From Thuidium tamariscinum (taxonomy: Eukaryota > Streptophyta > Bryopsida > Hypnales > Thuidiaceae): DNA of 64,000 nucleotides. A model generated the notes under the pieces. That model was not told the origin of the DNA and ran no database searches. It was given only the letters and a program-made list of their open reading frames with translations. A program made the position numbers and the translations under genes. This document shows, one piece after another, positions 2,156-61,878 of this stretch (its first letter is position 1; each line of letters starts with the position of its first letter). Where the stretch lies: the NCBI GenBank assembly GCA_947034885.2, contig OX344756.2:13326098-13390097 (forward strand), read 5' to 3'.

Positions 2156-3137
2156 CCCTGACAATTCCTCCCTCGCAAAGTCCAAGCCAAGAAACACAGA
2201 AGCACACTAACAAATACAATGAAAACACCACACGCATGATGCACACACAAAAATACACCATAAAAGAATGAAAGGAACTCATGAACTAAACAAAGAGTTC
2301 TACGTAATGTAAACTGCATGGAATTGACAAAACGTGCATGCTGTCCCAAAAGCTCCATTTCCACAATGCATAGCCAAGAACGATGAGAATTAACGAGCTG
2401 CATTGAAATTGCAAGGAGTAGGCTACAACCTGATCGTTGCGTACACCCTACGAGGTCTTTCATCCTTGGCGATATGCACGACTCCCCTCCAGCAATGAAG
2501 TGGCGAAACTGAAGAACATTGAAGAAGCAACTAGCGAATTCATCCAAACCCTACCCCACTACCTTGGCAACCTTAACTTCCTCATCAACGCCGAATCCGA
2601 GAGGGAGTGGCGAGATCAGAGCACTGTCCGGAGCAAAAAAATTTGGAGACTGTGCGGAGTGGCGAAGACGGGCAATTACTCTCCCTCCTCTGGCGCAACT
2701 GAGGAGAAGATATGGCGATGACACCCTAAAGTAACGGCTGGATTGGTGTCGACCTGGCCCCCTCTTGTCACCCTCAGCCACCAACGTGGCGAGCAGGAGG
2801 TCATTTCAACCAGAAAGTTTCCATACAAGGTTCGCCAAAGTTCCCAGGCTAGTGCAATCTGGCGCCCCAGCGCCAAAAAAAGAAACCCTGCTTGGTTGTA
2901 TTTGCCATAGGGCAATAATTCTCACCTAGCCTAGTAAATACCCAGTCTATGTCACTTGAAGAGCAACCATGGCCATGTTCTTGGCAAACATTTGTACAAC
3001 AAGTAACTAGATATACAAAGCAAAGATATCCACTTATTCAACATGAAAATATTTTTCCTGAAACTCAAGAAACTAAACCAAATAAATGTAAAATGTATCT
3101 AGAAAAGTAAGAGAAAAAATAACTTCACAAAGAATTT

Positions 3138-3530
3138 CTTAACTCTTAAACACCTGTAAGGACATTTTTTGTCCAGTGGATGACAAAGAATCCTTCTAGT
3201 AAGATAGAAGTGCAACTATTCATCCTCAAAATTTTGTTGTGAAAAGGGAAGGTCTTCTATAGTAGTTTGACTTTTAATGAGTGCTTTTGCAATTTTTGAA
3301 GGTAATGTTTCACAAGGTAAATAAAGGGATGATTTTTTTGGTCACCAATTCATCTTTTTGAGGGTTAAAAAAAGGATAATAATGAGTGTTGAACTCATCT
3401 AGAACAAATTGACTAGTAACAAAACCCTTCAAAAATTAAAAAATACTTGATACAACTATAAAAACTTTGTAACGTTGGATTGGTGACAATGGAAATCATT
3501 CTTTTTGAATTATGGTGAATTAATTATCTA
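3138..3530. repeat. Dispersed AT-rich repeat, copy 1 of 2
   Basis: This segment aligns by eye with about 50137-50400. Shared landmarks in order are TTAA(C/T)(C/T), GACAAAGAATC, AAGTGCAA(C/T)TATTCATCCT, GG(A/G)AAGG, (A/G)TCTTCTA and TTCTAATGAGT-like blocks. Both copies start at a TTAA. No right terminus is clear. It may be a decayed end of the TTAA-bounded transposons found elsewhere in the window, but that is inference. Confidence 0.5.
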
Positions 3531-8000: not shown

Positions 8001-10967
8001 CAAGAACGACAACAATGCTCTCCCTTGGAAAAAGACCCGTGGGCTACAGCTTGCTGTTATTGGTCCTCATGCTAATGCCACACGTGAAATGCTCGGAAAT
8101 TACGAAGGTATGCATATTAATGCCTCAAACGCCCGATTTCTTGTGAGGAAGAGCTGAGTGAGAAGAGGACCGGATTGGTTTTCAATCCCTAATACACCAA
8201 GACAAATTTCTTCAATCAGTTTCACTTATGAGAACTAATTTGATTCAATTTTGACCGTCAAATGCCATGTTCGACCCCATCTGATTTAATTATTGATTTT
8301 CACAATAATTGATCTATGAAGTTTATTGATTAGAGCCATGAATCTTTGGTTAATCTGTCATCTAAGTACCTTAAGTTTGTCCCTGGTGCCTCCGCAGGCT
8401 ACCCATGCGAGTATGTTACGCCTTTACAAGGGCTGTCCAAAGTGCTTTTAAATCGTGCACCGAATATTGTGTATCAGCGAGGGTGTCACGATGCCGCATG
8501 TGAGAGCACTCGCCTCATCGTAGCAGCTGGAAGAGCTGCGGCCGAGGCAGATGCGGTCGTCCTCGTGGTTGGGTTGAGTCAAGCGCAGGAAAAGGAGGGG
8601 CACGACCGCATCAGTTTGTTGCTGCCAGGCCATCAACGGGCGCTGGTCTCAATGGTGGTGGAGGCCGCCACTGGTCGCCCTGTAGTGCTGGTGATTCTCT
8701 CCGGAGGGCCGGTGGATGTTTCCTTTGCTGACGAGGACCCTCGCATTCAAAGCATTATCTGGGCTGGGTATCCGGGCCAGGCTGGTGGTCAGGCTATTGC
8801 AGATGTCATCTTTGGGCTTGTCAATCCAGGTCTCTGTGAATTCTAACCCTAACCCTAATGTAGACTGCGCAGATCATATTGATGCAGCTAAAAGTTGTAT
8901 ATTGCGTGGTGCTTACAGTCTCTTATCTAAGACCATACAAGGGTTCGAAAATGTAGAAAGTTCTAATGCCTATTGAAAATGAGACATTTGTTGATTTGCA
9001 ATAGTGTTATGTGTGAGCCCATTATTCTAAAGAATGTACTTCATATTTCTTTTCGAATTGTGGCATGTAGTTATAAGAATAATAGCATTTTAAATTATAT
9101 TGACAATTAGAATTTGAAATTTTCAAATCTGTGAGGAGTGCACTGAAGTTAATAGAGATATGAAATTATGTACACATTTCTATTTGGGGTAGAGACGCTT
9201 GTGAGTTACTGTTTGTTTGATGTTTTGATTTTCAACAGGGGGTCGTTTATCACAATCATGGTACTACGAAAACTACACCAATGTTGACATGTCCAACATG
9301 AATATGCGACCCAATGCGACCACGGGTTATCTTGGACGAACATACCGGTTTTTCACCAGCACACCCATCTGGGAGTTTGGTCATGGTCTGAGCTACTCCA
9401 ATTTCTCGTATACTCTAATTGCAGCACCTCTGTCAATCGTGGCTCCCCACTTGCGACACCAGCTTTGCAGTTCCGACCGCGCAATTATGAAGTCCAATCT
9501 GAACTGTCTTGACAAAGAAAAAGGTACCAGACGGTTGAAAACATCTTTGAACGTCATTTTCGTTAAATTGGGGATATTCCAAAAAACCCAAATTGTGACA
9601 TATAACTTCACAGAGGTCTAATTTCAGGCCACAAACTAGGTCCGGTATATTTTGGTTTCAGGTTCCGCGGCCAAAGTGATGGAATATCGCCAATTTATCG
9701 AATTTGACGTAACATAATTATCCTTCTTTACTAGGCTTGAAATCCCTCTTGCTGAGCTGGTGCTAAATACGCTTTTCAAAAGGAACCGCACTCAGTTGTA
9801 TTGATTTGTAATGTTGTGATATCTTTCAGAATTTCTTCCTTGTTGTGCTAGTTCGAATGTTCAGTGATTTTTTTAATATTTTCTTCCAGGGGCGTGCAAG
9901 GACGCAAGTTTCCGTGTGAGAGTGTCGGTGCGAAACAATGGCCCGTTCCGAGGTGGCCATGCCGTGCTTCTATTCTCAAAGCCTCCCGCGAGTGGCGTGG
10001 ATGGGACCCCATTAAAACAGCTGGTGAGCTTTGAGCGTGTGCAGCACCTGGAGCCTGGAGCTCAGCTGGAAATCGTGTTCACAGTGAACCCATGCAAGGA
10101 TTTAGGAACAGTTGGAGTCGATGGAATTCGGACTGTGGGTCTGGGCGAGCATACACTCACGGTTGAAGCGGAACGCCACGTGTTGACTGTTGTAAGTGTG
10201 ATTGTTAATTAATACCTTCTTGTTAGACTTCATTGTACTGTACATTTTGCGTCAGTTTAGGTGTTTTCAACCTATTCGTCGGAGTGTGCTTTCGCTGGCA
10301 AATCAATATAGAACTTGTACTTGAGGTTTCTCTTTGGGTAACAGAGCTTAACTCTCTCAAAAGCGATCAAAGTTTTATCACTATAAACGAGACTATAAAT
10401 GAATTACGAAATATGCAATCACTCTAGTTGTGAATTAGACATATCATCAGACACTTGGTATGGGCGTAGAGATTAGTATTGGACTTGTTATTTTCATAAA
10501 CTGTGGTTATGACGCTATGACACTCGGCGCGTTGCAGGAAAAGTGGATTTTGAGGCATGGCGAATCGTAGCCTGAGCTGGAAGTTTTTTTTTGAAACACT
10601 GAGCATGACCCATCCTCACTTTCAATTCGACATGATCCTCTTTGATTTCGTCGTCGTGGAGGGGGGAACTCTTTGATTTCGCCATTGAGGCCGGGACGCG
10701 TACATTAGTAAGTTCAACGATCAGGAATAGCTAGCATTGGATGTTTGAAGAGGCAGGAACCGCTTACTTAGTTTTCTCAGTCTCACCTTGCAAGGTCCAG
10801 TGTTTCTGCTTACTGACTTGGAAGCAACGTTCTGTAGTATTCCAGAGCACGTCCTGGTGGTGTAAAGTACAGCGGGTCGTTTCTAATTATTTGTATTTGT
10901 GTGTTTACAGGTGCACAGGAGGATCGATATAACGTCCGGAGAATGTGGTTCTAGCTTTCTAAACTGA
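5070..10967 (+). CDS. BXL: GH3 beta-D-xylosidase / alpha-L-arabinofuranosidase (BXL-like), gene 1
   Basis: This is probably an apoplastic enzyme releasing xylose or arabinose from wall xylan and arabinan. Exons: 5070-5471, 5875-6180, 6861-7030, 7205-7302, 7757-8107, 8398-8829, 9239-9523, 9890-10191, 10911-10967. All introns are GT-AG and the frame closes at 800 residues. The N-terminal 20 or so residues are a hydrophobic signal peptide. The GH3 N-domain follows: [39 protein letters not shown], and [10 protein letters not shown] with nucleophile Asp298. The C-domain carries [15 protein letters not shown] and [12 protein letters not shown] with LLLPG. A fibronectin-III-like end follows ([19 protein letters not shown]). 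Reading through the last donor instead gives a stop at 10210-10212 and 788 residues, so the C-terminus is uncertain. The intron lengths and 170-nt and 98-nt exons match the paralogue at 15746-20298. Substrate preference cannot be read from sequence. Confidence 0.93.
6680..6805. repeat. Tandem repeat with (AATA)n tails inside beta-xylosidase 1 intron 2
   Basis: The block CTACCTCC(G/A)TTTCATTTG followed by TTTCAAAAATAAATAAATAAAT occurs twice, at about 6691 and 6747. The AATA tails differ in length, and a third partial CAGCGTCT start follows. Just upstream (6669) is GGGTTCAAGTCTC, which resembles a tRNA B box, so the block could be the tail of a SINE. I could not find a convincing A box. Confidence 0.6.
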
Positions 10968-12795
10968 ATCAGTAGGGGTCTTAAGGGGATCTATACTAAT
11001 TAATCAACATTTCACACTATGTAAATATCTACCTTTGTTGTACATGAATAGTTATTGAAGTGTGGGGGCTTGTACATCATGTTTCAAACATCTATAGTTT
11101 TCTGTGATGAGTCCCTTTCATTTAATTTTGGTCCCCTTAAAAACCCCATGCAATGTAAATATCTTTTTAAATTGTTTTGCATAAGTGTATGCAAGAGCCT
11201 CAACCGGGGCCTCAACCTGGCATGTTGTTGAAGTTGGTGGTTTAGATGCACCTAAAATCATCAATGTGGTGGCACTTATCAAGGCACTCAAAAGTTGGAT
11301 GAAGTTACACAAAGAGGGATTATGGCTCCCTAGAAGTAGTGGACAATGTTGTTGAATTGACGTAGATATACAAAAAACCAACACAAAACCTACAACAAAC
11401 TCAATGTACTACCATCATACATTTAAGACCCCTCAATTAATTTGATTGTGATACATACTATATAGTATTTATAGATTTGTGTGACAATTTTGACACTAGA
11501 ATCTTGTCAATTTTGTTAAATTGATCATTTGTGTAATCATACTAGTCATACGGTGATTAGTTTTTTGTACATTGATTAGATACTAGTAGTTTTGTTTATG
11601 CTCTGATATGCATCCCAATGGACAAAAATCACAACATCAATGCATTACAAAGAATGTTATGATATTCACTTAGATTTTTTTAATATTGCCTTCTCTATTA
11701 TCAAATCGTCTAGTCTTCTCATCAAGTCCTTGAGCATGTATTAACCTCAGTTAACTCACTCCATATCCTAACTATCATACTTTGCAAACAAGTAACTCCA
11801 CAATGAGAGGTTGGATTTATCAAATTTAGACCTAAAATGTAATGCAAAATTGGTATTCAGCTACATGCGTGTTGCATATTTGTTATGTGGAAGTTGCAAT
11901 TTGTGTGACTTAACCGGTTACATGAAGCCAACAATGGAAAGGTTCTAAGTCAAAATGATTTTTGTCAACTCAATTTATTCTTTTCACAACATGTTTTATT
12001 AATTCATAGGTGACCTTCTTGTCAACTTATTGATGTTTTCCTCACATGAATTGTCGAGGCAAGTAGAATTATCCTAATAGACATCCATAGTTTTCCATCT
12101 TTGTAAGTATATGTGTTTGAAAATCTAGTGAAAGATTTCAAACCTCACTAAGTAGAGCCACTCCTATGAATGCAAATCTTCAATCAATCAATCATTAAAA
12201 ACAACCAATAAGAAACATAGGGTTAGATGAAATCTGAGTGGCTTTCTATTTCATCTTCTATTTTCTTTCTCCTTTAAAAAATTGATAATTCAATGGAGTG
12301 AATCTCATCTTACAAGAGACGTTGTCTTCTTTATGTGCACATGCGACAAAATGGTGTATAGGAGTTGTGTTAATAATAGGCATTGGAGGTATGGTTCACA
12401 GGTGACTAGAATCTGCAAGAGTTGTAATCGGCCATGAAAATCGGCAAGCCTTCACGAATCCAACGCCAGGGCAGTCTCTGCTCTGAGCTGCAAACCCTCG
12501 TTTAGATGAGCTGGTTAGGGTCGTAATTAGGCGTACCAACTTCCTGCACCCGAGCTTCAAACTCTCTGCCTGCGCAATTCGAGACACAGATATACGATGG
12601 GTCTCCCATTAGGCCTCAAGTAAAGCTGGTAATTGGGCGTACCGACCTTAATCCAGAAGACCTAAATTCTGAAGCCATGGTTGCTGTAGGTTAGCCATTG
12701 AGCTAGTAGCATAGCAGGACCTGCTGCAATGCTCATAACTTTCTGCACTTGAGCTTCAATCTCTCTGCCTTCGCAACTCGAGACACAGATTGACG
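10968..12795. other. Intergenic region, beta-xylosidase 1 to alpha/beta hydrolase
   Basis: AT-rich sequence with no supportable gene. The proximal part probably contains the 3' untranslated region of beta-xylosidase 1. The distal 260 bp contain a duplicated copy of the hydrolase 5' end (see 12538-12816). Confidence 0.5.
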
Positions 12796-12816
12796 ATGGT
12801 TCTTCCATTGGGTTTC
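12538..12816 (+). repeat. Duplicated 5' leader and start codon of the alpha/beta hydrolase
   Basis: Two copies lie exactly 200 bp apart (12538-12616 and 12738-12816). Both contain CTGCAC(C/T)(C/T)GAGCTTCAA, CTCTCTGCCT, TCGAGACACAGAT and an ATG (12596 and 12796) followed by a related MxLPLG reading. In the upstream copy the frame stops after 8 codons (TAA at 12620-12622). The true gene therefore starts at 12796. If transcription begins upstream, the first copy is a short upstream ORF. Confidence 0.8.
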
Positions 12817-14801
12817 AGCCCCACGCACATCTTCAACTTCTGCGTGGGCAAGTACTTCTCCTATTACGGCCTCCAACCCCACTTGGTGCATTTCAGCAAT
12901 GGCACCACCATGGCCTCCTGGGTTCCCAAGCAGCGCTCCCACAAACCCTCCCTGGTGCTCCTCCACGCCTTCGGCCTCAACTCCCTCACCTGGTGCCGCC
13001 AAGTATCACATTTCTCCACCGCTTTTGACCTCTTCATTCCCGACCTCGTGTTCAGCGGACACTCCTTCACCACGCACAAAGACAGGACGGAGAGGTTCCA
13101 AGCGGAGTGCGTGTTCAAGTTGTTGCAGCAGCTGGAAGTGGAGGACTTTAGTGTGGTGGGGACGAGCTATGGCGGCTTCGTGGCTTACAAAATGGCAAAC
13201 ATGTATCCCAATGCGGTAAGGAAGGTGGTGATCTCGAGCTCGGCGGTGAACATGACGGCGGAGACGGATGAGGCCATGGTGAGACGGTTCAAGACGAAAG
13301 ACGTGACGGAGATATTGCAACCGAGAGATGTGGAGGGGGTGAGGAGGATGTGGGTGTTGGCGTTTCGTCGACAGCTACCGTTCGCCATTCCTGCATTTCT
13401 CTGCAACGACGTGCTAAAGGTCGGATCGCAAACCCAATTTGTGCTGGCTGGAATTTACTAATATGCGCACCGCTGGTTGGTCACATGAATTTCAGAGTGT
13501 TAGAACTGTGGCCACAAACAGGAAAAAAAGGACGGATTTGAAAGTTCGAACACTCTGGAATTCATGTGACCACAAACAGAAAAAATGGCGAATTTCAGCG
13601 AGTTATAACTGAGACATTCAATCTGCAGATGGTTGGTTTGTGTTTAAAGTCATGCTTGTTGAAATTGCGGATTTCAGAGTGTTAGAACTAAGACATTCCC
13701 TCTGCATATTGTTTATTTGTGTTTTGTGGGCATGTTCGTGAAAATGGTGGATTTCGAAGCTCCAAAAACGTGACGACACAAGTGCTCAAAACTCTGGAAA
13801 AGTCCTGGAGAAGTTTAGAAATGAGATTTAGCTGGGCTCCGGATTCTCTAAAACACAATGGCAGTGAGATTTCGCCATCCTAACGAATATGGGATCGAAA
13901 TTACTTTGCAAGTCGTCGGAGGTTCTGATCTCTTCTGGTCAGATTGGCAGGTTCTTTTTAACGCGAACAGAAAGGAGAAGCTCGAGCTGCTGGAGGGTCT
14001 GCAGCTACGGAAACCGGATGCACCTCCTCTGCCGAAAGTCACTCAGGTGGTAGTTAGTTATTATTGTTATTATTCCACATTGATGCATATGATTCAGAAC
14101 ACTCTTAAGTCTATCTACTGTGGATCACTGTTTTTGAGCAATTTTTTATCTAGCACCAATCATCTTGCATCTGCTCATGTAGAATCTCATGACTTGATGA
14201 CGACACTATCCACACCGCGTGCTTCACTGACGTGTGGACAGAAGAGTGTAGTTAGCATGATTTGTGCGGTGTGTTTATCTGTTGACATACATTATTGTAA
14301 TGTGGATGTTAATTTGCTTGCAGGAAGCTCTTCTGATATGGGGCGAGCATGACCCAGTTTTTGACGTCAGTTATGCACGCCAACTCAAAGAGTAAGTTTT
14401 CTGGTTCTTTCATCTTTCTAGCTAGCTGCGTTCGTTAGTGATCAGTGCTCTCAACACTGTAACTACGGGACTAGTGGGCTTCCAAATGCACTCTCTGACA
14501 TGTATTATTCCCATCTTGACATGTTTCTTGTCAAATCAAATTTGCACAAATTTATCAAAAATGGTCTCTTGGGAATTGATCTCATTGGCCTATGTTTTTT
14601 TTGTAAATATCCTTTATTATACCACTGCCCTAAAGTAATTTCTGCTTACCTCCTTTTTTTCGCAGATGGCTTGGTGACAATGCTGATTTGGTGATCTTGA
14701 AAGATGCTGCACATGCGCCGCAAGTTGAAGTATCCCAGGAGTACAACAAGAAGGTTCTGGAATTCTTAACAAGGCCACCTCGAGGGGAGTATCACAGGTG
14801 A
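12796..14801 (+). CDS. Alpha/beta-hydrolase fold protein (serine hydrolase)
   Basis: Exons: 12796-13419, 13951-14046, 14324-14391, 14666-14801; all introns are GT-AG and the product is 307 residues. The catalytic triad is visible. The nucleophile elbow is VGTSYGGF with Ser124, the acid is in IWGEHDPVFD (Asp250), and the histidine is in AAHAPQVE (His279). The oxyanion-hole region is LVLLHAFG. Overall it resembles the plant and MGL/ABHD6-like hydrolases annotated as alpha/beta-hydrolase superfamily proteins. The physiological substrate (lipid ester, hormone ester or other) is not evident. A short hydrophobic N-terminus is present but no clear signal peptide. The ATG at 12796 is preferred because upstream frame sequence lacks an ATG. 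It lies between two beta-xylosidases with no evident functional link. Confidence 0.9.
13479..13571. repeat. Inverted repeat (hairpin) in hydrolase intron 1
   Basis: The arm at 13479-13506 (GGTCACATGAATTTCAGAGT...) is almost perfectly complementary to 13544-13571, with two mismatches in 28 bp and a 37-bp loop. Related direct fragments (GATTTCAGAGTGTTAGAACTA) recur at about 13672, and ACCACAAACAG/GCCACAAACAG flanks occur on both sides. It is probably a decayed small transposon. Confidence 0.75.
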
Positions 14802-15745
14802 ATTTGGCCCGTTATATCGAGACTAGTTTAGCTAGAAAGTTGCTACTCCCACATCCTCGATTTTTTTATCATATCACAAACTTGTGTTCAAATTGAATGA
14901 CCCACCACTTTCTCCAAGAAAAAGAAGTTCCTGCTCAGGGAGACCCTTGCTTTGCGATGAAACCTCAAAACCTTTTGTTGTTGATGCAGCATAGTTTACG
15001 TTGCCATACTAAACTAGCTCTTTACATACACTTCTTTGGTAGGATCGACTAAGGAAGAGGAACTAAAGCATTTGGGACGTGTCGTGTTTAGCCAGTCCAC
15101 AAGACTCAAGATTCCTTGTCAACCCAAGTCGCCAAAGTCCTCTTTGCGACTTTATTTACATCTCAAAAATCACACAATTACATATGTTAAAATGCTCCAA
15201 GTGATGCAAATAGTATTTTCTACCTTAGATCACACAAATGTACCGTACAATACTAAATGGAGTCTTCATTAAAGAATCATTTGCTCCACACGAACTAAAC
15301 CTAAACATGTCCATCTAATTACTGTTCGTTGGAGTCCAAACTCAGAAGGCGGCAGAATAACGTATCAATTCATATTATTCTCTTCACATTATTCTCTTCA
15401 CCATCCCTGCAGTTGCACGAACTCTTGCAGGAATCAGCGCCACCGAAACAACTCCAAATGGAGATGAAAATGAAAATGCTGATCATTCATTACAATCTGC
15501 CAAATTCGAATGTGATTAGGCTAAGCTTGGATTTGAAAGGAAAGAAAAAGTATCAATAAATAACGAAAGAATGAATCAATTCAACTGCGAACTTGGCACC
15601 GTGTTTCTTGTGCCGGGATTGGAGCTGAATTTTATAGCATCTTTTGAAGTTTGCGAATCTTATTTTGTGATGTGCTTGTTTCTTCTTTTTTTGAGATCAA
15701 AACTGGATTTTCAATTCCCCCTTGAAAACCCAATTTTGACGCTAG
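14802..15745. other. Convergent intergenic region, hydrolase to beta-xylosidase 2
   Basis: No gene seen. It probably contains the 3' untranslated regions of the two convergent genes. Open frames in this stretch have no domain or splice support. Confidence 0.5.
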
Positions 15746-18700
15746 CTAATGTCCACCGGAAGCAGCAATGACGTCTGAATCATTGTCAAGAACGGACAAC
15801 GAGTGAATGGCGTCCCCGACGGAGAGAATGTGCTCGCCGGCTTCCACAAAGCGTGTTCCATCTTCTGTCACGGATCCCAAGTGTCGACACGGGTTGAGGC
15901 TGAGCACCACCTTTTGCAGCGCACCCGCTTCCACAAACACGGAATCAAACGCCGTGAGCTCCTTGAGAGGGGTTCCATTCTTCCCTGCGGAAGGAGGGGT
16001 CCGGAACAAGAGCACCGTGTGGTGACCTCCATGGGCTCCCACATTCTCCACATTCACATGCACATCGAAATTGGCCAACGCACATGTCCCTGGGCAGGTT
16101 CACGTTAATCGACAACTAGCTCAAAAATCTCTTAGAACTAAATTGCACCATTCGAAAGCTTCGATTGGATACCCACTGAGAAAATGTACAGTACATTACG
16201 AAATGTCAAAAAAGCATTAGAGCATGTTGAGTGACATTTCCCTCCCAATGTTGTCTAAATGAGTGCCTAAATGCGTTAATCACGAGCAGTGGTTCCTCAC
16301 ATGAGCTTTGACACTCACCTTTGAAAAGTGGGGATTGATCAAAATGAGTTTAGAATCACCTCTTTCATGTGCGAGTGTCAAAATTCATGTGTTTCTGGAT
16401 TCATGTAATCTTGTGGACCACGTCAATATAGTTGTGGAGATTACTCGCGCACCTTGTTTTGCCTTCGAGCACGCTGTTGTCGCAGTGCCCATTTGATGTG
16501 GATCGCACATCTGATCCTCAACCTCTGGCTTCTTAACAAACGTCGGCGCCACAATGAACTCATGCTTAAAATCACTATACCCCATCCCATCTCCAAACTT
16601 ATACACCGTCTCCCCCGTAAAAAATCGATACGTCCTTCCCGGATAATCTCCCCCCACCTCCGGTCTCATCCCCATATTCGTCATACTAATCTTCGTATAC
16701 TCCTCATAATACCACGACATCGGCAGCTTCCCCCCAGGATTATGCTCCCCAAACACCACTTCCGCCATCGCTTGCCCCCCAGCTTCTCCCGGGTAGCCCA
16801 CCCACATAATACTCTGAATCCCCTTATTCTCCTTCGCAAAGCCCACGTCCACTGGCCCCCCACACATGAGCACCAGAATCACAGGCTTCCCAATCGCAGC
16901 GCATTCGGTTATCAATTGCTCTTGGTATCCTGGTAAGCGCAGGCTTGTCCTGTCGAGCGCTTCCGATTCTTGCACTTGGGATAACCCCATGACGAGTATC
17001 ACAACGTCGGCATGCGATGCTGTTTCAACTGCAGATGGGATGAGATGGTTGTCGTTGCAGGCGGTGGAGATGCATCCCTGTGAGAATTGAGTTGTGGCGA
17101 ATTTGGAGAGGGCTTGTAAAGGTGTGACGTAGATGCACGGGATGCCTTCGTAGTTGCCGAGCATGGTGTGAGTGGCGTCAGCGTTGGGGCCGATGACTGC
17201 GAGGGTTAGGGTTTGGGTTTGGCGTAATGGGAGGGTGTGGAAGTCGTTCTTGAGGAGGACGATGCCTTGGCGGGCGGCTTCCAGGGAGAGCTCCTGGTGG
17301 CTTGGGGTGCAGACGGAGGAGGCGTTGAGAGAAGCGAAGGGTTGGGAGGAATAAGGGAAGTCGAACAGGCCGAGGCGCATGCGGAGGGAGAAGAGATTGG
17401 AGATGGCGTTGTCGACGCGCTGTTGGGAGACCTTGCCCAGGCGGATGGCGCCTTCGGTGTAGGAGGCCAGGTAGTCGCCGCAGTTGAGGTCCAAACCTGA
17501 AACGTGAGCAACCGGGAATCCCACCATTAGGATTCTCGATAATCTAACCATTCCTAGCAGCGACACTGTAAGGCTAGCATGGTTTCTAGCATCAAAATGG
17601 TCACAGGATTCCAACGCACCGGAGAATGCATCATTTAGATACAATGTCCAAAATTGATGAATCTTCGAGGTTTAGGGTTCATTTGATAGAAGAGTACAGC
17701 AGACGCAGGTTCTGGGATCGATTGAGGTAGTGTGCATTCTCAAAATCAACTTGTAATCCCGCTAAAGTAACCATCGACACTGTAAGCAGTTTCTATTATC
17801 ATAATGCTCCTCTGATTCCAATGCATCAGAGAATGCATTCTTTGGGTACCACGTCCAAAAGGTTAGGGTACATTTGATAGATGATTAACACCGACAATAT
17901 TGAGGTGCTGTGCATTTTCAAATTCATACTAGCGCAAGAGTATGAGTACCTCTCCCGTAGAGCTCACCTGCATTGAGAGCATCAGCAGCGGCATCTTCAG
18001 TGGTGGGGGAGTAGTTTGTGGATTCGTGCATCACCATAACAGAATCGCAGTCCGACACGATGTACCTGCGGAACAATTCAAAGGTTATTGGGAAACTTGG
18101 TACTCCAAGGAAGTATTAATGAGTGAGGAAATGAAGAATGATACTATCAATTGATCAATGACAGAGAATGATGGAGATGGTCTTAAATACGTACCCATCC
18201 AGTCCCCAAGTGTTTCTCACAGTGTTGACAAGGAAGTCATGGTTAGCGCAAGTGGGTACTCCATTCACCTTGTTGTAGGAGCACATGAGGCTCGTCGACC
18301 GCCCATCCTGCACGCAGCTCCTGAACGGAGGGTTGTACGTGTCCGCCAAGTCTTGCGCTGTCACCTGCGCACGCCAACAGGTCCATCTTGAGCCCAAATT
18401 TCAATTCCCCTCTTTTGAATGCCGAACATAGCATTCAAATCAAAAGAAACCTTACAATTACCATAACATATCATAACATACATTTAAAACAAAATAAAAC
18501 CTGCCGAGTGTTTCTTGTAGTATCAACGCAGGATGCTTGTTTCCATAACTTCCTCAGAACAATCCCATGCAAATTGAGCAAGTCACAGCTCAATTTTGTA
18601 GCAAGCTGTCCAAATACTCACATCTTCTAATCTCCAACTGTTTGTACTTGTGTACGTTATGAACATTCAAAGAAACTCCAAACCGATTGTACGTTATAAA

Positions 18701-20298
18701 CATTTAAAGACTCGGTCTCTGCTCAACCGTCTTGCCTTATGTTTTGGGCGATTGATTAGATGATCTATATATGGATTTAAGTGTTTCGAGAGGAGTATCG
18801 AATTGAAGGTTTTATTTCATACACGGCGCATGAGGTTTGATTTCCTGCTCGATAAGGAACATAGTTTTTCCGAGAGCAGTACCTATCGAATTGAAGGTTG
18901 AATTTCACAGAGAGTGACGTTTCGAGTGCTGACCTTGGCGTCGAAATGGTATCGATCGACGCCTTCCCAGTTATCAACGTCGTAGGCCGTGAAATGCTTA
19001 CAACAAGCAGAAAGTTTGAGCCGCTTGGACGTGGGAGATCCGCCCTCCTGCATTCCCCTTACGAAGGCGGCGGCGTAGGCGCTGGTGGTGGTGGGATCCT
19101 CCCCGGAGGTTTCTTGAATGCGTCCCCAACGAGGGTCGCGCGCGATGTTGATCACGGGCGACCAATACGTCAACCCCGCGAGGCCTTCGTTGTAAAACGC
19201 TCGCGCTTCCGTCGAGACGGCCTACATTGGGATAACACCATCCCCACCAAACCTTGGTGAGCAAACCAAATACATCCATCTTTCGATTTGTTTGTGCATA
19301 CAGGTGAATCCCAAAATCGTGAATACTAGCTTGTCCTAATGAGTGTACATTCTTCAAGTTAAAAGAATCGTTTCCCACCCTAAGCAGGTGGATGTCGGTT
19401 TTCAGGTTTGAGAACTCATTTAAGTCATGCTTTGGTAAATTGGGGACTCAACTTACGCTTCCAGCATTGGCGATCACAAGATCATTGTCACCAAGAACAG
19501 TCACGGATCATCCTAGATTTCGAGTTTAATTCCGGAGTTCACTTTGTGCTTTTCGCGGTTTGTTTGAGCAATCCATCCGGTGTTCTCGAGTTGCAACCTT
19601 GTTCGGGAGTTCTAGCTCTCAAATTGATGTGCTTGAAAAAACATTCAAATCGAAGCTAGACCCTCAAACACCATTCTCCTTGGATCTATGCTGTAAACTC
19701 ATCTTCTTGTCTAAAGAAACTGAGAGAAGATGGAATTTCAAAGCACCCACCACACTTTTCACTCCTCCGATCCCATTCCAGCGGTTTCATGGAAGCTCCG
19801 ACGTTGATCATGATTAGTTTTCTACCCTACTCTGGTATTCTCCAACTGCTAACATGCGAATACAATGGAAACAAGCATTTGAAGAGAGATTATATTTAGA
19901 CATGCCTGTCCAATTTGATTCCATAAGTCTTTATTGAACGACGCAGTTGTGAGTATGGGCAAAGGAAAGCTGGTTGCGCGAGGCAAAGCTCCGCCAAACG
20001 GGACATGAGCCACACCATGCAAGCCTTCTTGCCACCACTGGTACGCCGGAATGCCGAGCCTTGGAATGGCCTCCGCAGTATTGACAAGCTGAGAAACTTT
20101 CTCCTCCAACGTCAACCTCGACACCAAGTCCTTCACTCGCACCTCATCCGCCAGCGACGTGTCGCAGAACGCCATGGATTTCAAGGTTGCATCCTTGTCA
20201 AAGTTGCAAGCGTACTCCATCGCCATTGCAACTCCAGCTTGCCAAACCATCACCACCGTAAGTATGCACCCAATCTCTCGACCCACCAATGCCGCCAT
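15746..20298 (-). CDS. BXL: GH3 beta-D-xylosidase / alpha-L-arabinofuranosidase (BXL-like), gene 2
   Basis: Exons in coding order: 20298-19906, 19221-18934, 18364-18195, 18065-17968, 17496-16453, 16089-15746; the product is 778 residues. The start ATG is followed by a hydrophobic signal peptide. GH3 landmarks are [51 protein letters not shown] (nucleophile Asp289), [27 protein letters not shown] and [10 protein letters not shown]. Exons 3 and 4 are exactly the same length as in gene 1 (170 and 98 nt). The 1044-nt exon 5 covers what three exons cover in gene 1. The first intron appears to use a GC donor (CAG|GCATGT), because only this site joins the frame correctly to ...[13 protein letters not shown]. 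The role is the same as proposed for gene 1; the two genes are convergent paralogues. Confidence 0.93.
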
Positions 20299-22356: not shown

Positions 22357-23202
22357 TTAACCCCTAAGCGCTCAAACGACCATTTTCTGGTCGCTGCCTG
22401 ACTTCGGGCAGAATTTTCGGGCAAAAAAAAAACTTTTTTCAATTTTTTTTTTTTTTCAGTTTTGAAAAAATTGGGTTTTCTTTCAACATTGATATTCAAA
22501 ACTAAGATCAATATGGTAAAAAAAAAGTTATAGCAAAAAAAGGAGAAATAGTACAAAGTGTCTCAAATTGCTGAGTGTTGAGAAACTTACTATTTGGGGG
22601 AAGTACCGATGCTCTCATTAGTACATAATTTTTATTTCTTAACAAATCAATAAAAACCACAATTTTGACCAATAAAAAAAAATTTCAAATCATAAAAATA
22701 GAAATTGTATTTTTGGTGAATTTTTGAAGTTATATCTTCAAAATTCATTTGAAGAGAATCTATAAATATTTTTTTAATTTTGATCATATGGATACTTTCT
22801 ACTTTTTGTGCTTTACATTATCTTATCTGATGCTAACTTCAAAAATGTTGTAAAGCTTATATTTTATAACACATTTGTATTTTGTCTTAATCTCTTCGGC
22901 TTTTAGAGGTTGAATATTTTGCATTTTTTTATGAATCAATAAGAAACACAATTTTGACCAATCAAAAAAATTTTCAAATCCTAAAAATAAAAATTGTATT
23001 TTTGGTGAATTTTTGAAGTTATATCTTCAAAATTCATTTAAAAATAATCTAAAAATATTTTTTTTACTTTGACTGTATTGATACTTTCTACTTTTTGTGC
23101 TTTACATTATCTTCTTTGATAATAGCTTCAAAAAAGTTGTAACACTTATATTTTATAACACTTTTGTGTTTTGTCCTAACCCCTTGGGCTTTTAGGGGTT
23201 AA
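22357..23202. mobile_element. TTAA-bounded piggyBac-like non-autonomous element with duplicated right half
   Basis: The left end is TTAACCCCTAAGCGC. The right end read inward is TTAACCCCTAAAAGCCC. TTAA flanks with CCC termini match the piggyBac signature. Just inside the left end are two short hairpins, CGACC/GGTCG and CTGCC/GGGCAG (22376-22413). The interior holds two direct copies of about 300 bp (about 22625-22918 and 22930-23202). Each contains GTATTTTTGGTGAATTTTTG and TACTTTCTACTTTTTGTGC and ends in a version of GGCTTTTAG(A/G)GGTT. No coding capacity. Confidence 0.7.
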
Positions 23203-24345: not shown

Positions 24346-24497
24346 TTAACCCATTAAGGACCAGGTCGATGACTAGTTGATCACTCTAGTTGAAAATGAT
24401 AGGTTTTCATTAGTAGTCACTTCACCTACTAATGAAAACATGTCATTTTCAACCAAATATTCATTTGCAGTCATTGACCTGGTCCTTAATGGATTAA
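24346..24497. mobile_element. Snap-back TTAA-bounded MITE, 152 bp
   Basis: The left end TTAACCCATTAAGGACCAGG and the right end read inward TTAATCCATTAAGGACCAGG extend into a near-complete hairpin. Inner arms GTTGAAAATGA...TTTTCATTAGTAG and CTACTAATGAAAA...TCATTTTCAAC are also complementary. Flanking TTAA and CCC-type termini suggest piggyBac-like mobilisation. It abuts another terminus, sharing its TTAA. Confidence 0.8.
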
Positions 24498-27547: not shown

Positions 27548-28960
27548 GGGTAGTTGAACTTGAAGTTTGGCACACATCTAAGCGACACAAAGGTGATCCC
27601 ATGACAGATATTTCATGTGGGAAATAAAACAAAATTTTAGCCCTTCAAAGGTGTCAAAGTTGGTTGTAGTGAAATTGTTTTTCACAACTACACATGTTGG
27701 TAGATTTCAAATATCTCATTTTGGAAAAATCTCTTAAACTTAAATTTTGTACATATGTTATTAACTTTGGACTGTCGCCAACGCCATTTTGTGGAGTTTG
27801 GATGATAGTCCAAGGTCATAAGAAGAGGTAAACAATAGTTTTTTCATCTACTACCTTTTTTAAATGACTTTTCATGTTGAGTTACAAAGAGTATCCAATT
27901 GAGTTTTTAGTCTAACTAATGTTTGTTTTCATGTAGTTGAGAAGTATTAGAAAAAATGGATGGCAAAATTTGCCATTTTAGTGTATTTTGAGAAATTGAG
28001 TAAATCTGAAATTTCTCCTTGAAAACAACATTTTTTGAATTTGAGGCCAACTAATGAAATAGAGGTCCTCTACTCTAGTTTCTTCTACAATCTGAATTTT
28101 GGAAAAATTCATAAAATTGAATATTTTATTGCAGTTTGAACTTTGGCTATATTTTTAATGTCCCTTGCACTATAATTATAGATGTTCACGGCAAATCAAT
28201 TTACACCATGATGTTTGTCACTGTAATGTTCACACATGGTGAAATTTTCAGATTTTTTGAGATTATTTTCTATTTGATATGATTTTTTCTTCAATTTTTC
28301 TTCAAAAAAATTCTGAAAATACAATTTTCCTCAAAAAAATCTGAAATTTTTATGAAGTACAAAGAACATGTAATTTCATCTCTGAAAAATAAAATTAAAA
28401 GAGTTTCATACACATCTGGTCACAAAATGGCAACAACATGAGTGACAAACAGTGAGCCCTGAAACCAATGGTTATAGGCCTGGCATTTAAGGGTTAACAT
28501 AGAGTTGATCTTGGGAAAAAAAATTCATGGTAAAAGATCAATTTTTCAGACCTTAAAAGGGTGTCAAAGTTGACAATACTCAAATTGTCTCTTACAATAG
28601 CTAATGTTGGTAGATTTTCAATTTTTTTTTTGTGTAAATCTTTTGGCCTTGAAATTTGGCACATGTATTACTAACATATAGGTGATTTCATGGCAAAATT
28701 TTTATTAGAAAATAAAGTTCCTTTAATCCTTGGGAGGGTGTCAAAATTGGCAATAGTGAAATTTTTCCCATAGCTACACATGTTGGTAGATTTTGAATAC
28801 CTTTTTTTTCTGTAAACCTTTTGGCCTTGAAATTTGGCATGTATGTTATTAACATAGAGAGTATATTTTGTAAGAAAATTCATGGTAAAAAAAACAATTT
28901 TTCAGCTCGTGGGAGGGTGTCAAAGTTGGCAACATTGAAATTTTTGTCCCTGCAAATTCA
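27548..28960. repeat. Decayed tandem repeat of about 177-bp period
   Basis: A unit containing TTGAAATTTGGCA(C/T), a GGTGTCAAA(G/A)TTGGC-like word and ACATGTTGGTAGATTT recurs. The GGTGTCAAA words fall at about 27649, 28560, 28735 and 28914; the last three are about 177 bp apart. The first copy is separated by diverged sequence. A GGGTTAA terminus at 28491-28497 lies just before the clearest units. Confidence 0.65.
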
Positions 28961-29056: not shown

Positions 29057-29136
29057 TTAACCCCTCACCGCCCAAGGGGACGAAATGTGTCCCCTTTTCA
29101 GTGTATTTCAAGATACCCGGGGCGGTGAGGGGTTAA
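29057..29136. mobile_element. Very short TTAA-bounded element, 80 bp
   Basis: The left end TTAACCCCTCACCGCCC is matched exactly by the right end read inward (17 bp). TTAA flanks both sides. Only about 46 bp lie between the repeats, including a GGGGAC...GTCCCC hairpin. It fits an extreme internal-deletion MITE of the piggyBac-like group. Confidence 0.8.
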
Positions 29137-29319: not shown

Positions 29320-29450
29320 TAGTGATCTCAGAATAGATTCAAGGTTTTTAGCCAAATGTTCATTTTTGGAAGATTTTTTAAAATTTATACAAAGGGCATG
29401 AAAAAATTAAGTAGAAAATTAGCAAAATTTAACCAGTTTTGGGATCACTG
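29320..29450. mobile_element. hAT-like MITE, 131 bp, copy 1
   Basis: The ends TAGTGATCTCAG and (read inward) CAGTGATCCCAA are inverted. The element is flanked by GTACAGAC (29312-29319) and GTACTGAC (29451-29458), a 7/8 match to an 8-bp target duplication. It aligns along its whole length with 48466-48596 with only a few differences. 8-bp duplications and CAGTG termini are typical of hAT elements. Confidence 0.85.
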
Positions 29451-29458
29451 GTACTGAC

Positions 29459-30552
29459 GGACCTTCCTCAATGAAAATTGATTGAAGGCCCGCCTCATGT
29501 AAACTTTCTTACTGTTCCTACCAGGTCACTTGTGGCTAGTAGTCTTGTATTTTACCTTCTGCAATGGAATCCCGTTTAATTTTTGTCAAAAAGGAAATAA
29601 ATAAATTGATAGCAAGAGACAAAAGGGTTTACTCACAGTTTAATTATTGGTTGTCATGTGTAGAAGCATGAAGGACACTGTCCAATTGTTGTTTTTGTCT
29701 AGCTCACAACAAACTCCTCCCCTCACTACCCCATCTGTCCAAAGAAGCCTCTCCTCACATGAGAAAATCTCTACAATAGTTGACCCCCTCTGTTTAATAA
29801 GTGTACTTAAACTTAACCTACCCCAATGGAGACATGCAACTAATTTTTCCATTTTGAAATCATGACCAAGAAAAAAAGTGTCAAACATAACATTCAGTAG
29901 CACATTGTGGCTCTGCCTTTTTTCTACAGTGAAGGGTGTGGCATATTCGACACCCAACAGCCTCTCCATCGTCCACATGTCTACTTCAGTAGTTAGTGAT
30001 GAAACATTTTTGGGCCTCAGTTTGGCCTTCGGTTACACTCAGTTCACCACCATTATCAATAATGATCGAAAATTGTCAAATAAGCTAAATTTAGTGTAGT
30101 TGGAATTAGGCATCTTTTTTGGTAATAGCAATTGAAAATTATGAACTTAATACAAAATAGAATTTTTGGATGAGATATGTAATTTCTATGAATTTTGACT
30201 GTAGAATTCCTTGGGTCATTGAAATTGTCACATAGCTTGGTCTAAAATTTAAAATTTAGAGAAATTAATAGTCATCTAATTGTAGTTAAATGTGGGAAAG
30301 ATTTTACCCTCAAGGACTCTGACATCCGTATTTTGGATGATTAACAAATTGCTTCAAGGCACTAAATAGTCCATTTAGCTTCTCATTCATCCAATATAAT
30401 ACTCAAATCTTAGGAAGAAAATCTTCCTTATTGATCAATTTGTAAAATTATAATAAATGATATTCCTACACAAAGATATAAACAAAAATGTGCAAAAATT
30501 CAGAAAAAGGATTGAGGTGTTAAGGAGTTCATGATACTTTGGAGTACATTGA
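29459..30552. other. Gene-free stretch between two transposons
   Basis: No gene seen. Short open frames at 29640-29978 and 29878-30099 overlap each other on opposite strands and have no recognisable domain. Confidence 0.4.
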
Positions 30553-31429
30553 TTAATTCTTAAATGTATTTGACTATGTTTTCACCAAAATGCTCCAAAA
30601 CTGCCATTTCTAATACAAGTACCAAAATTTAAAAACCTCAACACATTTTTTAATGCATGTAATCATAGGACCTTATAGTAAGATAATTTTAAAAGATGTG
30701 GAAAAAATTTCACAAGTTTCCACTATATAGATTGCAAGATATTAATAGTTGAATTTACAAATTAAAATCATTTTTTGGGCCCTCCAAAAAAATGTGTAGG
30801 TGCACTTCACGAGGTTGCATTTGTATGAAAAAAAAATTCAAGTTGGTGGTTACTCTTTGGATTTACTATTCAAGACAAGTTGGCTACTCATTAAAAAAAT
30901 CTCAAATCATTTGGAATTGCACAATATATAGGAAAAAAATAGTGAGTAGAAAGAAGAAGAAAATGATTCAAAACATTAAATTGTAAACAATCATTATTTA
31001 TGGAATTGAAAAATGCCAATCACTATGGTTAAAATGTTGTAATAAATAATCTACAACTATTGTTTTTATTTTTTTCCAAAAATATTAAAATTTTTCTTAA
31101 ATAAAGGATTTCAAACTTTTTGAAGAGTAGAGATTTTGTAACTACCTACAAACTACCCCAAATGAAAATTCTTCATAACTTTTGATTCATTGATCAAAAT
31201 AGAATGATTCAAAGTTTTCACTTAGATATAAATCTAAAAAAACAATTTCAAATTTTTATTTCTTAAATAAGTTTTTAACTATGTAGTGAAAAGTTATGAA
31301 AACTATTAGGCCTTAAAGATACTCCTTGGAAAAATGTTGAGTGAAAAACAAAACAGAACTTCATTTATAGTGAGCCATTTGAAATTGATGTGTTGCCAAT
31401 AAAACACAATTTGGGCATTCAGGGTTTAA
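30553..31429. mobile_element. TTAA-bounded piggyBac-like element, 0.9-kb family, copy A (degenerate)
   Basis: The left end TTAATTCTTAAATGTATTTG aligns base for base with copy B's TTAACCCCTAAAGG..., the CCC having become TTC. The right end is GGGCATTCAGGGTTTAA. Shared interior words with copies B and C include TATGTTTTCACCAAAA, TGCTCCAAAACTGCC, ATGTGGAAAAAATTTCA and AGATTGCAAGATAT. No coding capacity remains. Confidence 0.75.
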
Positions 31430-32495: not shown

Positions 32496-33448
32496 TTAAC
32501 CCCTAAAGGTTTTTGAGTATGTTTTCACCAAAACTCCTTCAAAATTGTCATTTCTTAGACAACTACCAAATTTTAAGAAAAAAAATTTTGAACAAAAATA
32601 ACCATAGGATCTTTTAGTATACAAGTTTGACAAGATGTGGAAAAAATTTCAGCAATTTTTGCCATGTAGATTGCAAGATATTAGTGTTTGAAGTGACAAA
32701 AATTATTTTTTTACCACTAGAAAAATTCAGGCAGTTGCACTTCAGAAGACCATAATTGTATGAAAAAACGTCCAAAATGAATGTGACTCTTTGAATTCAT
32801 CTTCAAGTGAAGTTGGCTACATGCTTGAAAATTTTCAGATGATTTGGAATTGTGCAACATACAGGAAAAAAATAATAAGTAGAAAGAAATAGAAAATAAG
32901 CCAAAATACTAAATTATTAACAATTTATTTATAGAGTTAAAAAAAGACAATCCCAATGGTTGTAATGTTGTGTTAAACAATATACACCCAATGTTTTTAT
33001 CTTTGTTCAAAAATATTAAAAATTGAATTAAATAAAGAATTTCAAACTTTTCTTATAGTATAGAGATTCTATAACTAGCCATGAACTACCTCAAACTAAA
33101 AATCTACATAACTTTTGACTAATTAATCAAAATGAAATGATTCAAAGCTTTCCACCTAGATAAAAAATCAAAAGAACCAATTTCAAATTTTAATTTCTTA
33201 AAAGAATAATTTTTAAAGAAGTTTTTTTTGTTGCCTGGGTCGCCCGCCTATGAAAGGAACCAACATATCATGTCATAACTTCTTAAACATCTAAAAAAAA
33301 AGTTATGAAAATTGTTGGGCCTTAAAGCTACTCCTTGGGCACATATTTTGTGAAAATTTCAAATAAAAAAAATAAAAACTCCATCCGTAGTGAGCTGCCC
33401 AAAATCACTATGTTGCCAAAAAACCCAATTTGGTCTTTTAGGGGTTAA
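32496..33448. mobile_element. TTAA-bounded piggyBac-like element, 0.9-kb family, copy B
   Basis: The ends are TTAACCCCTAAAGG and (read inward) TTAACCCCTAAAAG, 953 bp apart. The interior aligns with copy C along its length: TTTTCACCAAAA, TTGCAAGATAT, GTTGGCTACAT, GGAAAAAA and GTTGGGCCTTAAAGCTACTC. The right part includes TGCCTGGGTCGCCCGCCTATG and matches GCTGCCCGAGCTGCCCGCC in copy C. Non-coding. Confidence 0.85.
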
Positions 33449-37638: not shown

Positions 37639-37867
37639 TTAACCCTGAAACGTCTCAATCCTTTTTTGAATTTTTGCGCATTTTCGCTTATAGCTTTGTA
37701 CAGATATATCACTTACCAGAATTTAATGAATTTGGTCATTAAGGGAAGTTGTCTTTTCTAGATTCAAGTGTTACATTTGATAAATGAGAAGTTAATTGGA
37801 TGAAACAGTGCCTTGAAGCCCTCTGTTCATCGTCCAGAATATGGACGTCGGAGCGCTTCAGGGTTAA
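37639..37867. mobile_element. TTAA-bounded piggyBac-like MITE, 229 bp
   Basis: The left end TTAACCCTGAAACGTCTC and the right end read inward TTAACCCTGAAGCGCTCC match over about 16 bp with two mismatches. TTAA flanks both ends. A short hairpin CGTCCAGAATATGGACG (37831-37847) lies just inside the right end. Non-coding. Confidence 0.75.
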
Positions 37868-48465: not shown

Positions 48466-48596
48466 CAGTGATCTCAGAACAGATTCAGGGTTTTTAGCCA
48501 AATGTTCATTTCTGGAAGATTTTTTAAAATTTATACAAAGGGCATGAAAAAATTAAGTAGAAAATGAGCAAAATTTAGCCAGTTTTGGGATCATTG
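48466..48596. mobile_element. hAT-like MITE, 131 bp, copy 2
   Basis: The termini are CAGTGATC...GATCATTG. A perfect 8-bp flanking duplication, GTGCCAAG, lies at 48458-48465 and 48597-48604. Same length as copy 1 (29320-29450), with a nearly identical interior (TTTTTAGCCAAATGTTCATTT, ACAAAGGGCATGAAAAAATT). Confidence 0.9.
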
Positions 48597-48758
48597 GTGC
48601 CAAGTAATTCAATCAGTGCTTACAGCAGTTCCATAACATTCAGTAGCCTATGGAAGGACTGCCTTCCCCTTGGTGAAGTCCCCATCACATAATTTCATCT
48701 GACATTTCTTGGAGTTGCAACTTTAGTTACTGAATGGTGTAGAATACCATTGGTGCTA

Positions 48759-60923: not shown

Positions 60924-61878
60924 TTAACCCCTAAACCCCCGGACAGCGTTTTCACCAAAAAAAATGCTCCAAAACTGCCATTTCTAATACAAGAGCAAAT
61001 TTTTTTTAAAAACACATTTTTGACTCATGTAACCGTAGGATCTTGTAGTAAGGTGGTTTGTAAACATGTGGAAAAAATTTCAGAAATTTCCACCATGTAG
61101 ATTGCAAGATATAAGCATTTGAATTGACAAAAACTGTTTTTTTATCCCTGCGAAAATCCGGGCAGCTGCACTTCACAAGGTCACATTTGTGTGAAAATAA
61201 TTTCAAAATGGTGGTTACTCTTTGAATTCTTACTTCAATGTAAGTTGGCTACATTCTCAAAAAATTTCAAACCATTTGGAATTGTACAACATATAGGAAA
61301 AAATAAGTAAGTAGAAAGAAGTAAAAAATGAGCCAAAATACTAAATTGTGAACATTTTATTCATGGAATTGAAAATTTTCAATCCCAATGGTTAAAATGT
61401 TGAAATAAACAATCTACACTTTTTGTTTTTATTTTTTTTCAAAAATATGAAAAATTAAATTAAATGAAGAATTTCAAACTTTTTTTGTGCTGTGCAGATT
61501 CTGTAACTGGCTGCAAACTACCCCAAACTTAAAATCTTCATAACTTTTGACTCATTGATCGGAATGGATTGATTCAAAGCTTCACATGTCTGTATAAACC
61601 TAAAGAACCGATTTGAAATTTCACTTTTCAAAAAAAAGTTTTTTTGAAAAAGTTTTTTCAGCTGCCCGAGCTGCCCGCCGAGCAAACAAAGTAACATATC
61701 ATGCCATAACTTTTTATCCACAAAGTCAAATGTTATGAAAATTGTTGGGCCTTAAAGCTACTCCTCAGACACACATTGTATCAAAATTTCAAAGAAAAAA
61801 AATAAAAACTCCATCCGTAGTGAGCTGCCCAAAAAATCTATAATCTCAAAAAACGCTGTCCGGGGGTTTAGGGGTTAA
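60924..61878. mobile_element. TTAA-bounded piggyBac-like element, 0.9-kb family, copy C (best preserved)
   Basis: Perfect terminal inverted repeats of 29 bp, beginning TTAACCCCTAAACCCCCGGA and continuing CAGCGTTTT at both ends, with flanking TTAA. The interior aligns with copies A and B: TGCTCCAAAACTGCCATTTC, ATGTGGAAAAAATTTCAG, AGATTGCAAGATAT, GTTGGGCCTTAAAGCTACTC and CTCCATCCGTAGTGAGCTGCC. No open frame long enough for a transposase, so it is non-autonomous. Confidence 0.9.

Follow-up and report, generated by a model that had tools for sequence, protein, structure and literature searches.

A recently spread 947-bp element with TTAA flanks and CCC ends in a plant genome, probably moved by a piggyBac-type transposase

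The piggyBac-type MITEs of the coral Acropora (CMITEs) are described as having TTAA duplications and CCC ends, and as falling, within a single genome, into several families that differ in their ends, in places side by side (PMC2872659, in the passages drawn on here). The same traits were found in the window, a stretch of 64,000 nucleotides of plant DNA that was analysed here. The piggyBac group is known above all from animals. Animal piggyBac transposons, in the part of the literature used (PMC10813416), resemble the main element of the window (element A) in their TTAA target, their mostly CCC start and their rare use of other 4-bp targets. In plants, PiggyBac is already known by name from reviews: in the passages cited, it is listed among seven angiosperm MITE superfamilies (PMC10004981), credited with 1230 repeats in a fern genome table (PMC6890710), and named as a superfamily of plant transposons or MITEs or as one of the elements that plants carry (PMC10794571, PMC2874221). 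A sequence-only reading of the window had called such elements little described in land plants; this is only partly right, as reviews and the fern table, in the parts cited, already name PiggyBac. The open-access matches listed included no title devoted to land-plant piggyBac MITEs, which implies nothing beyond the open-access set. The present analysis adds clean plant evidence for the duplication of the target, for the ends and for recent spread.

Element A (window 60924-61878) consists of 947 bp of non-coding DNA with TTAA on each side, and was resolved into the following features.

60924..61878, + strand: element A with both 4-bp target duplications (947 bp plus TTAA on each side)
60924..60927, no strand: left target-site duplication TTAA (the non-TTAA copies L013 and L014 are informative)
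60928..60952, + strand: left terminal inverted repeat, 25 bp, CCCCTAAACCCCCGGACAGCGTTTT
61850..61874, - strand: right terminal inverted repeat, 25 bp, matching the left perfectly
61875..61878, no strand: right target-site duplication TTAA

The stretch 60924-61878 starts with TTAACCCCTAAACCCCCGGACAGCGTTTT and ends with the exact reverse complement of its start, and TTAA followed by CCC was present on both strands, as the sequence-only reading had noticed. The perfect 29-bp terminal inverted repeat that it had proposed was found as a 29-nt repeat at 60924-60952 and 61850-61878, outer TTAA included; the repeat proper is 25 bp (CCCCTAAACCCCCGGACAGCGTTTT) and the outer TTAA is duplicated target, because one genomic copy has ATAT, and another CTAG, at either end. 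The 29-nt repeat is no chance match: if one (TA)n run is set aside, it was the sole perfect inverted repeat of at least 20 nt with arms 50-2000 bases apart in a scan of the window. The proposed lack of coding capacity was borne out, the longest stop-free stretch in any frame being 80 aa. No match was returned by tRNA and Rfam scans of the window, and no exact match to the ends by viral and genome contig collections, as expected for plant DNA. With respect to the usual features of MITEs, element A is non-coding and its copies (best 40 of 6053 candidates) are 931-949 bp long, but its 947 bp exceed the usual size of less than 500 bp (PMC2872659, in the passages cited).

The remainder of the window was surveyed for protein-coding content. 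The plant host assumed by the sequence-only reading was in keeping with a legumain exon, whose best matches were vacuolar-processing enzymes, asparaginyl endopeptidases and an entry named plant legumain (E 1e-33 to 1e-19); entries that we take to be mammalian legumain matched this exon at about 1e-11. The 14 matches to the legumain prodomain exon were named as of vacuolar-processing enzyme, asparaginyl endopeptidase or plant legumain type. Pfam domains in window ORFs were those of GH3 glycosidase, alpha/beta hydrolase and Pus10. GH3 glycosidase domains lie on both strands (8334-8843 +, 16388-17671 - and 18886-19221 -) and form a local gene cluster at 8334-19221. A 497-aa open frame at 716-2206 (-) had no Pfam match at E 0.01; by eye, we take it to resemble a zinc-finger/hAT-type protein. 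Two 132-bp stretches at 29321-29452 and 48467-48598 are 95% identical, and represent either a recent duplication or a short mobile element lacking clear ends.

Copies of element A were sought by a DNA search of the 363-Mb genome (19 contigs), in contig 8 of which the window lies; the search gave 6053 first-look candidates, not all of them verified copies. The best 40 (L001-L040) were scored, and all were full-length with 97-100% identity, in line with the earlier view of a non-autonomous element. The remaining entries among the 134 matches listed were cross-matches of ends or of an internal inverted repeat. Flanks were read for all scored copies, 35 with an automated end finder and five (L017, L028, L030, L032 and L040) letter by letter; those of L012, L013 and L014 were also read letter by letter, L012 having TTAA on both sides. 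Equal 4-mers were found on both sides in 40/40 copies: TTAA in 38, as the sequence-only reading had expected and as in piggyBac, and other words in two (ATAT in L013 and CTAG in L014), which weigh against the sequence-only reading but are rare and of the same length. The next base outward was equal in 8/40 copies, as chance gives, which limits the duplication to 4 bp.

TTAA is palindromic, and TTAA copies alone fit equally well a 4-bp duplication or a TA duplication with one element base at each end. The copies with other flanks distinguish the two: the base adjoining CCCC is T in L013 and G in L014, mirrored on the opposite side. Since it follows the target, where a fixed element base would stay A, CCCC must be where the element begins and 4 bp the length of the duplication, a conclusion that depends on these two copies. 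We therefore hold it very improbable that element A is a MITE of PIF/Harbinger (3-bp TTA/TAA) or Tc1/mariner (TA) with misread ends, in which case TTAA would be made up of TA and a flanking element base at either end. Such a misreading would suit the central TA shared by the palindromes TTAA, ATAT and CTAG, and the TTAA copies taken alone fit TA plus a terminal A/T. The flanking base that Tc1/mariner would hold constant is, however, the one that tracks the target in L013 and L014; the 3-bp duplication of PIF/Harbinger is at odds with 4-bp duplications that include ATAT and CTAG; and inverted-repeat pairs in the window showed no excess at TTA (5/47043) or TAA (4/54167) as compared with TTAA (6/5022). 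TA and TTA/TAA duplication models were rejected on the evidence of L013 and L014.

Among the ends of L001-L020, 39/40 start with CCCC and the remaining one (in L010) with CACC; all eight ends of L028, L030, L032 and L040 also start with CCCC, and in 16 further copies the end was compared as a whole only. The CCC start typical of piggyBac was thus present in all of the individually read ends except that of L010. The end of element A contains CCCCTAAACCCC, which we take to resemble the plant telomere unit. Capture of telomere-like CCCTAAA repeats in inverted orientation, with no transposon involved, would account for this string but hardly for 40 dispersed full-length copies with equal 4-bp flanks; such an origin is scarcely credible and was rejected on the strength of those copies and flanks. 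A variant end, CCCCTAAACCCCTAA(A)CA, is common to at least four copies (L028, L030, L032 and L040) and defines a subfamily; its likeness to two plant telomere units is, we presume, coincidence.

The best-scoring 40 copies spread recently, as their mean divergence from the majority sequence is 1.07% (range 0.32-2.11%), which agrees with the recent activity deduced earlier from the perfect repeats. These 40 are the best of 6053 candidates, so their low divergence applies to the family's young members only. C-to-T plus G-to-A changes in the 40 scored copies numbered 154, as against 74 in the opposite direction.

Two older relatives of element A, on which the sequence-only reading was silent, lie in the same window.

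32496..33448, + strand: B, an older relative with 77.9% identity to A in the aligned columns and TTAA at either end
about 30553..31429, + strand: C, an older relative with 76.6% identity to A in the aligned columns, ends decayed, TTAA kept at both

In relative B the first 12 nt of both ends match, TTAA included, and TTAA plus CCCCTAAA is found on each side. B and C have diverged by 22-23% from A. C-to-T plus G-to-A differences from A to B numbered 70 as against 34 in reverse, and from A to C 74 as against 34; CpG counts were 13 in A, 4 in B and 1 in C. This excess, together with the loss of CpG in B and C, marks A as the least decayed of the three.

For empty-site comparison, the flanks of a copy were joined with the 4-mer counted once, and aligned across the junction to uninterrupted repeat relatives. 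A single TTAA was found in uninterrupted relatives of three insertions: for L008 in window 28778-28923, in the L018 flank and in two L030 alignments; for L015 in the L004 flank; and for L021 in window 10957-11118.

28849..28852, no strand: single TTAA in the uninterrupted repeat relative of the L008 site

The 13 spanning alignments listed comprised five with TTAA at the site, six with other words (CTAA, GCGA, TTCA, TTGA, AAAA and TCAA) and two that were gapped or shifted and unreadable; in a separate comparison TTGA was found in an L012 relative and CTAA in another L008 relative. The sites compared are diverged relatives (about 67-80% identical) and not alleles; mutations in the target are therefore to be expected, and the evidence is supportive rather than decisive. 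The precise TTAA that the sequence-only reading had anticipated at empty sites of related strains was recovered for L008, L015 and L021, and other 4-mers in 6/13 spanning alignments, in diverged relatives instead of strains. Judged by these alignments, the one-TTAA relatives of the three insertions appear to fit precise insertion. Window 27550-28948 holds a repeat family that is arranged in tandem with a period of 178 bp, has relatives at L008, L018 and L030, and served as an insertion target.

Four further TTAA elements were delimited in the window, with unlike interiors and similar ends.

22357..23202, no strand: distinct TTAA element, ends TTAACCCCTAAGCGCTC / TTAACCCCTAAAAGCCC, internal 289-bp tandem duplication
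24346..24497, no strand: 152-bp fold-back TTAA element, 29-nt ends 93% complementary
29057..29136, no strand: 80-bp TTAA element, perfect 17-nt ends (TTAACCCCTCACCGCCC)
37639..37867, no strand: 229-bp TTAA element, ends TTAACCCTGAA..., with a decayed second copy from about 30303

The left TTAA of the fold-back element also serves as the end of a further TTAACCCC terminus (24349), so that two TTAA elements abut; at L009, likewise, another TTAACCC terminus begins at the right TTAA of the copy. TTAA-bounded inverted-repeat pairs numbered six in the window, a count that takes in a weak pair at 10981-11140 and, for the element at 24346-24497, its inner TTAA. Local dinucleotide shuffles (500) gave 0.9 on average, and none of them reached six. 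TTAACCC/GGGTTAA occurred 17 times (shuffle mean 7.3, maximum 15; 500 shuffles). When pairs bounded by one chosen word at a time were scanned, TTAA gave 6/5022 and eleven of the fifteen other 4-mers tried gave none; the rest were AATT (5/20773), ATAT (3/4475), AGCT (2/2064) and TGCA (1/5336). The AGCT rate, from few pairs, is near that of TTAA and was counted against a piggyBac reading. A scan for inverted repeats blind to TTAA gave 38 pairs in the window, four of which begin exactly at TTAA. Insertions of piggyBac type are reported from A/T-rich surroundings (PMC10954464, in the part cited); AT content around the six paired window insertions was not raised (mean 0.61, as against 0.65 for all TTAA sites), which was also counted against the piggyBac reading.

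A subterminal palindrome with a T-rich loop (for example CGACCA-TTTTC-TGGTCG and CGTCCA-TATTC-TGGACG) lies at about position 21 in the termini 22357-22396, 37828-37867, 30303-30342 and 3139-3178, and is possibly a candidate transposase binding site. Hairpin stems of at least 5 were found in 9/19 window ends and in 5.7% of 742 other TTAA site ends; the hairpin was not built upon, since the choice of the 19 ends followed their inspection and no such hairpin is present in element A.

Taken together, element A, at 947 bp, is probably a long MITE: a DNA transposon of the cut-and-paste kind that is non-autonomous and for which a piggyBac-superfamily transposase is the most likely mover, given its choice of TTAA, its CCC ends and the likeness of its ends to coral piggyBac ends. 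For the last point, the family-weighted mean end of the window elements, CCCCTAAACGCCCA, was compared with the left ends printed in the passages of PMC2872659 drawn on, excluding CMITE IV, AmiPB1 (first 13 bases as in CMITE I) and AmiPB6 (no end given). It exceeded CCC-keeping shuffles for 5/9 coral piggyBac/CMITE left ends (p 0.033 or less, uncorrected), and scored best against AmiPB2, which encodes a transposase; the other 4/9 coral ends were not above shuffles. The 25-bp ends of A exceed the general 12-19 bp (PMC2872659, as far as cited), and this was counted against the piggyBac reading. So was the terminal motif in its strict form, CC[C/T]T, from which element A departs by beginning CCCCT; other window termini conform to it (CCCTGAA at 37639 and CCCTTAA at 28497).

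Sola3 also makes TTAA duplications. TTAA by itself does not settle the superfamily, and we regard it as unlikely, if worth keeping in view, that the mover of element A is a TTAA-specific transposase from a superfamily other than piggyBac, be it Sola3 or an unnamed plant lineage, and that its CCC ends are convergent. The TTAA duplications of the element A copies suit Sola3 as well, and no transposase was seen in the ORFs scanned; more specifically, Pfam detected no piggyBac transposase in the 30/64 window ORFs of at least 100 aa that were scanned, nor in the 10/12 scanned ORFs of at least 110 aa from fetched copy loci. Sola3, Kolobok and PiggyBac are kept as separate insect MITE superfamilies in iMITEdb (PMC5199201, in the part cited). 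Against a non-piggyBac mover, the CCC ends and the end consensus resemble those of piggyBac. A Kolobok element, which would likewise duplicate TTAA, as is seen here, and which is reported from some algae, should have 5'-RR and YY-3' ends (PMC9587614, in the passages cited); 39/40 ends of L001-L020 are CCCC and the other (L010) is CACC, making this origin highly unlikely, and Kolobok was rejected on its end bases.

Under the preferred piggyBac reading, element A would carry only the end sequences needed by a transposase; that enzyme, encoded elsewhere in the genome, would bind the 25-bp ends, cleave at CCCC/GGGG and insert the element into a TTAA site, which would then stand on each side of it. 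Both the cut-and-paste movement by an enzyme of piggyBac type and the presence of that enzyme in the genome are inferred. Evenly balanced is the wider proposition that several unlike families of TTAA-specific, CCC-ended mini-transposons were colonising this plant genome until very recently, all served by a living piggyBac-type or still unnamed TTAA-specific plant transposase lineage, with A as the youngest wave.

TTAA-targeting, CCC-ended elements bear the signature of the transposon group used for animal gene delivery, and the near-identical copies dispersed through this plant genome point to a transposase that was lately working in plant cells. If its gene were found, it would provide a plant-adapted, possibly scar-free insertion tool, and would help to clarify by what route piggyBac-like elements entered plants or how they have lasted there.

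With Stowaway (Tc1/mariner) and Tourist (PIF/Harbinger) element A shares multiple copies, lack of coding capacity and terminal inverted repeats; those families make 2-bp TA and 3-bp TAA/TTA duplications, respectively (PMC10004981, in the passages cited), whereas A makes 4 bp. The angiosperm PiggyBac MITEs of the same review share the assigned superfamily and the plant host, a likeness by name, as the source in the part cited carries no sequences (PMC10004981). Unlike animal piggyBac transposons, element A has no internal transposase gene, and the alternative targets listed for those transposons in the passages drawn on (PMC10813416) do not include the ATAT and CTAG seen here. Bee piggyBac elements often start with CAC (PMC10140906, as cited), like the one divergent end of L010. 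Coral CMITEs, as described in the parts used, differ from A in being about 100 bp long with a conserved interior shared across families, A being 947 bp long, from a plant and with 25-bp ends. Coral end strings similar to the window ends are CCCCTCAGTGTCCG and CCCTTTAAGCCCTA, and coral family III starts with CCCCTC, the same departure from CC[C/T]T as that of element A (PMC2872659, in the passages cited).
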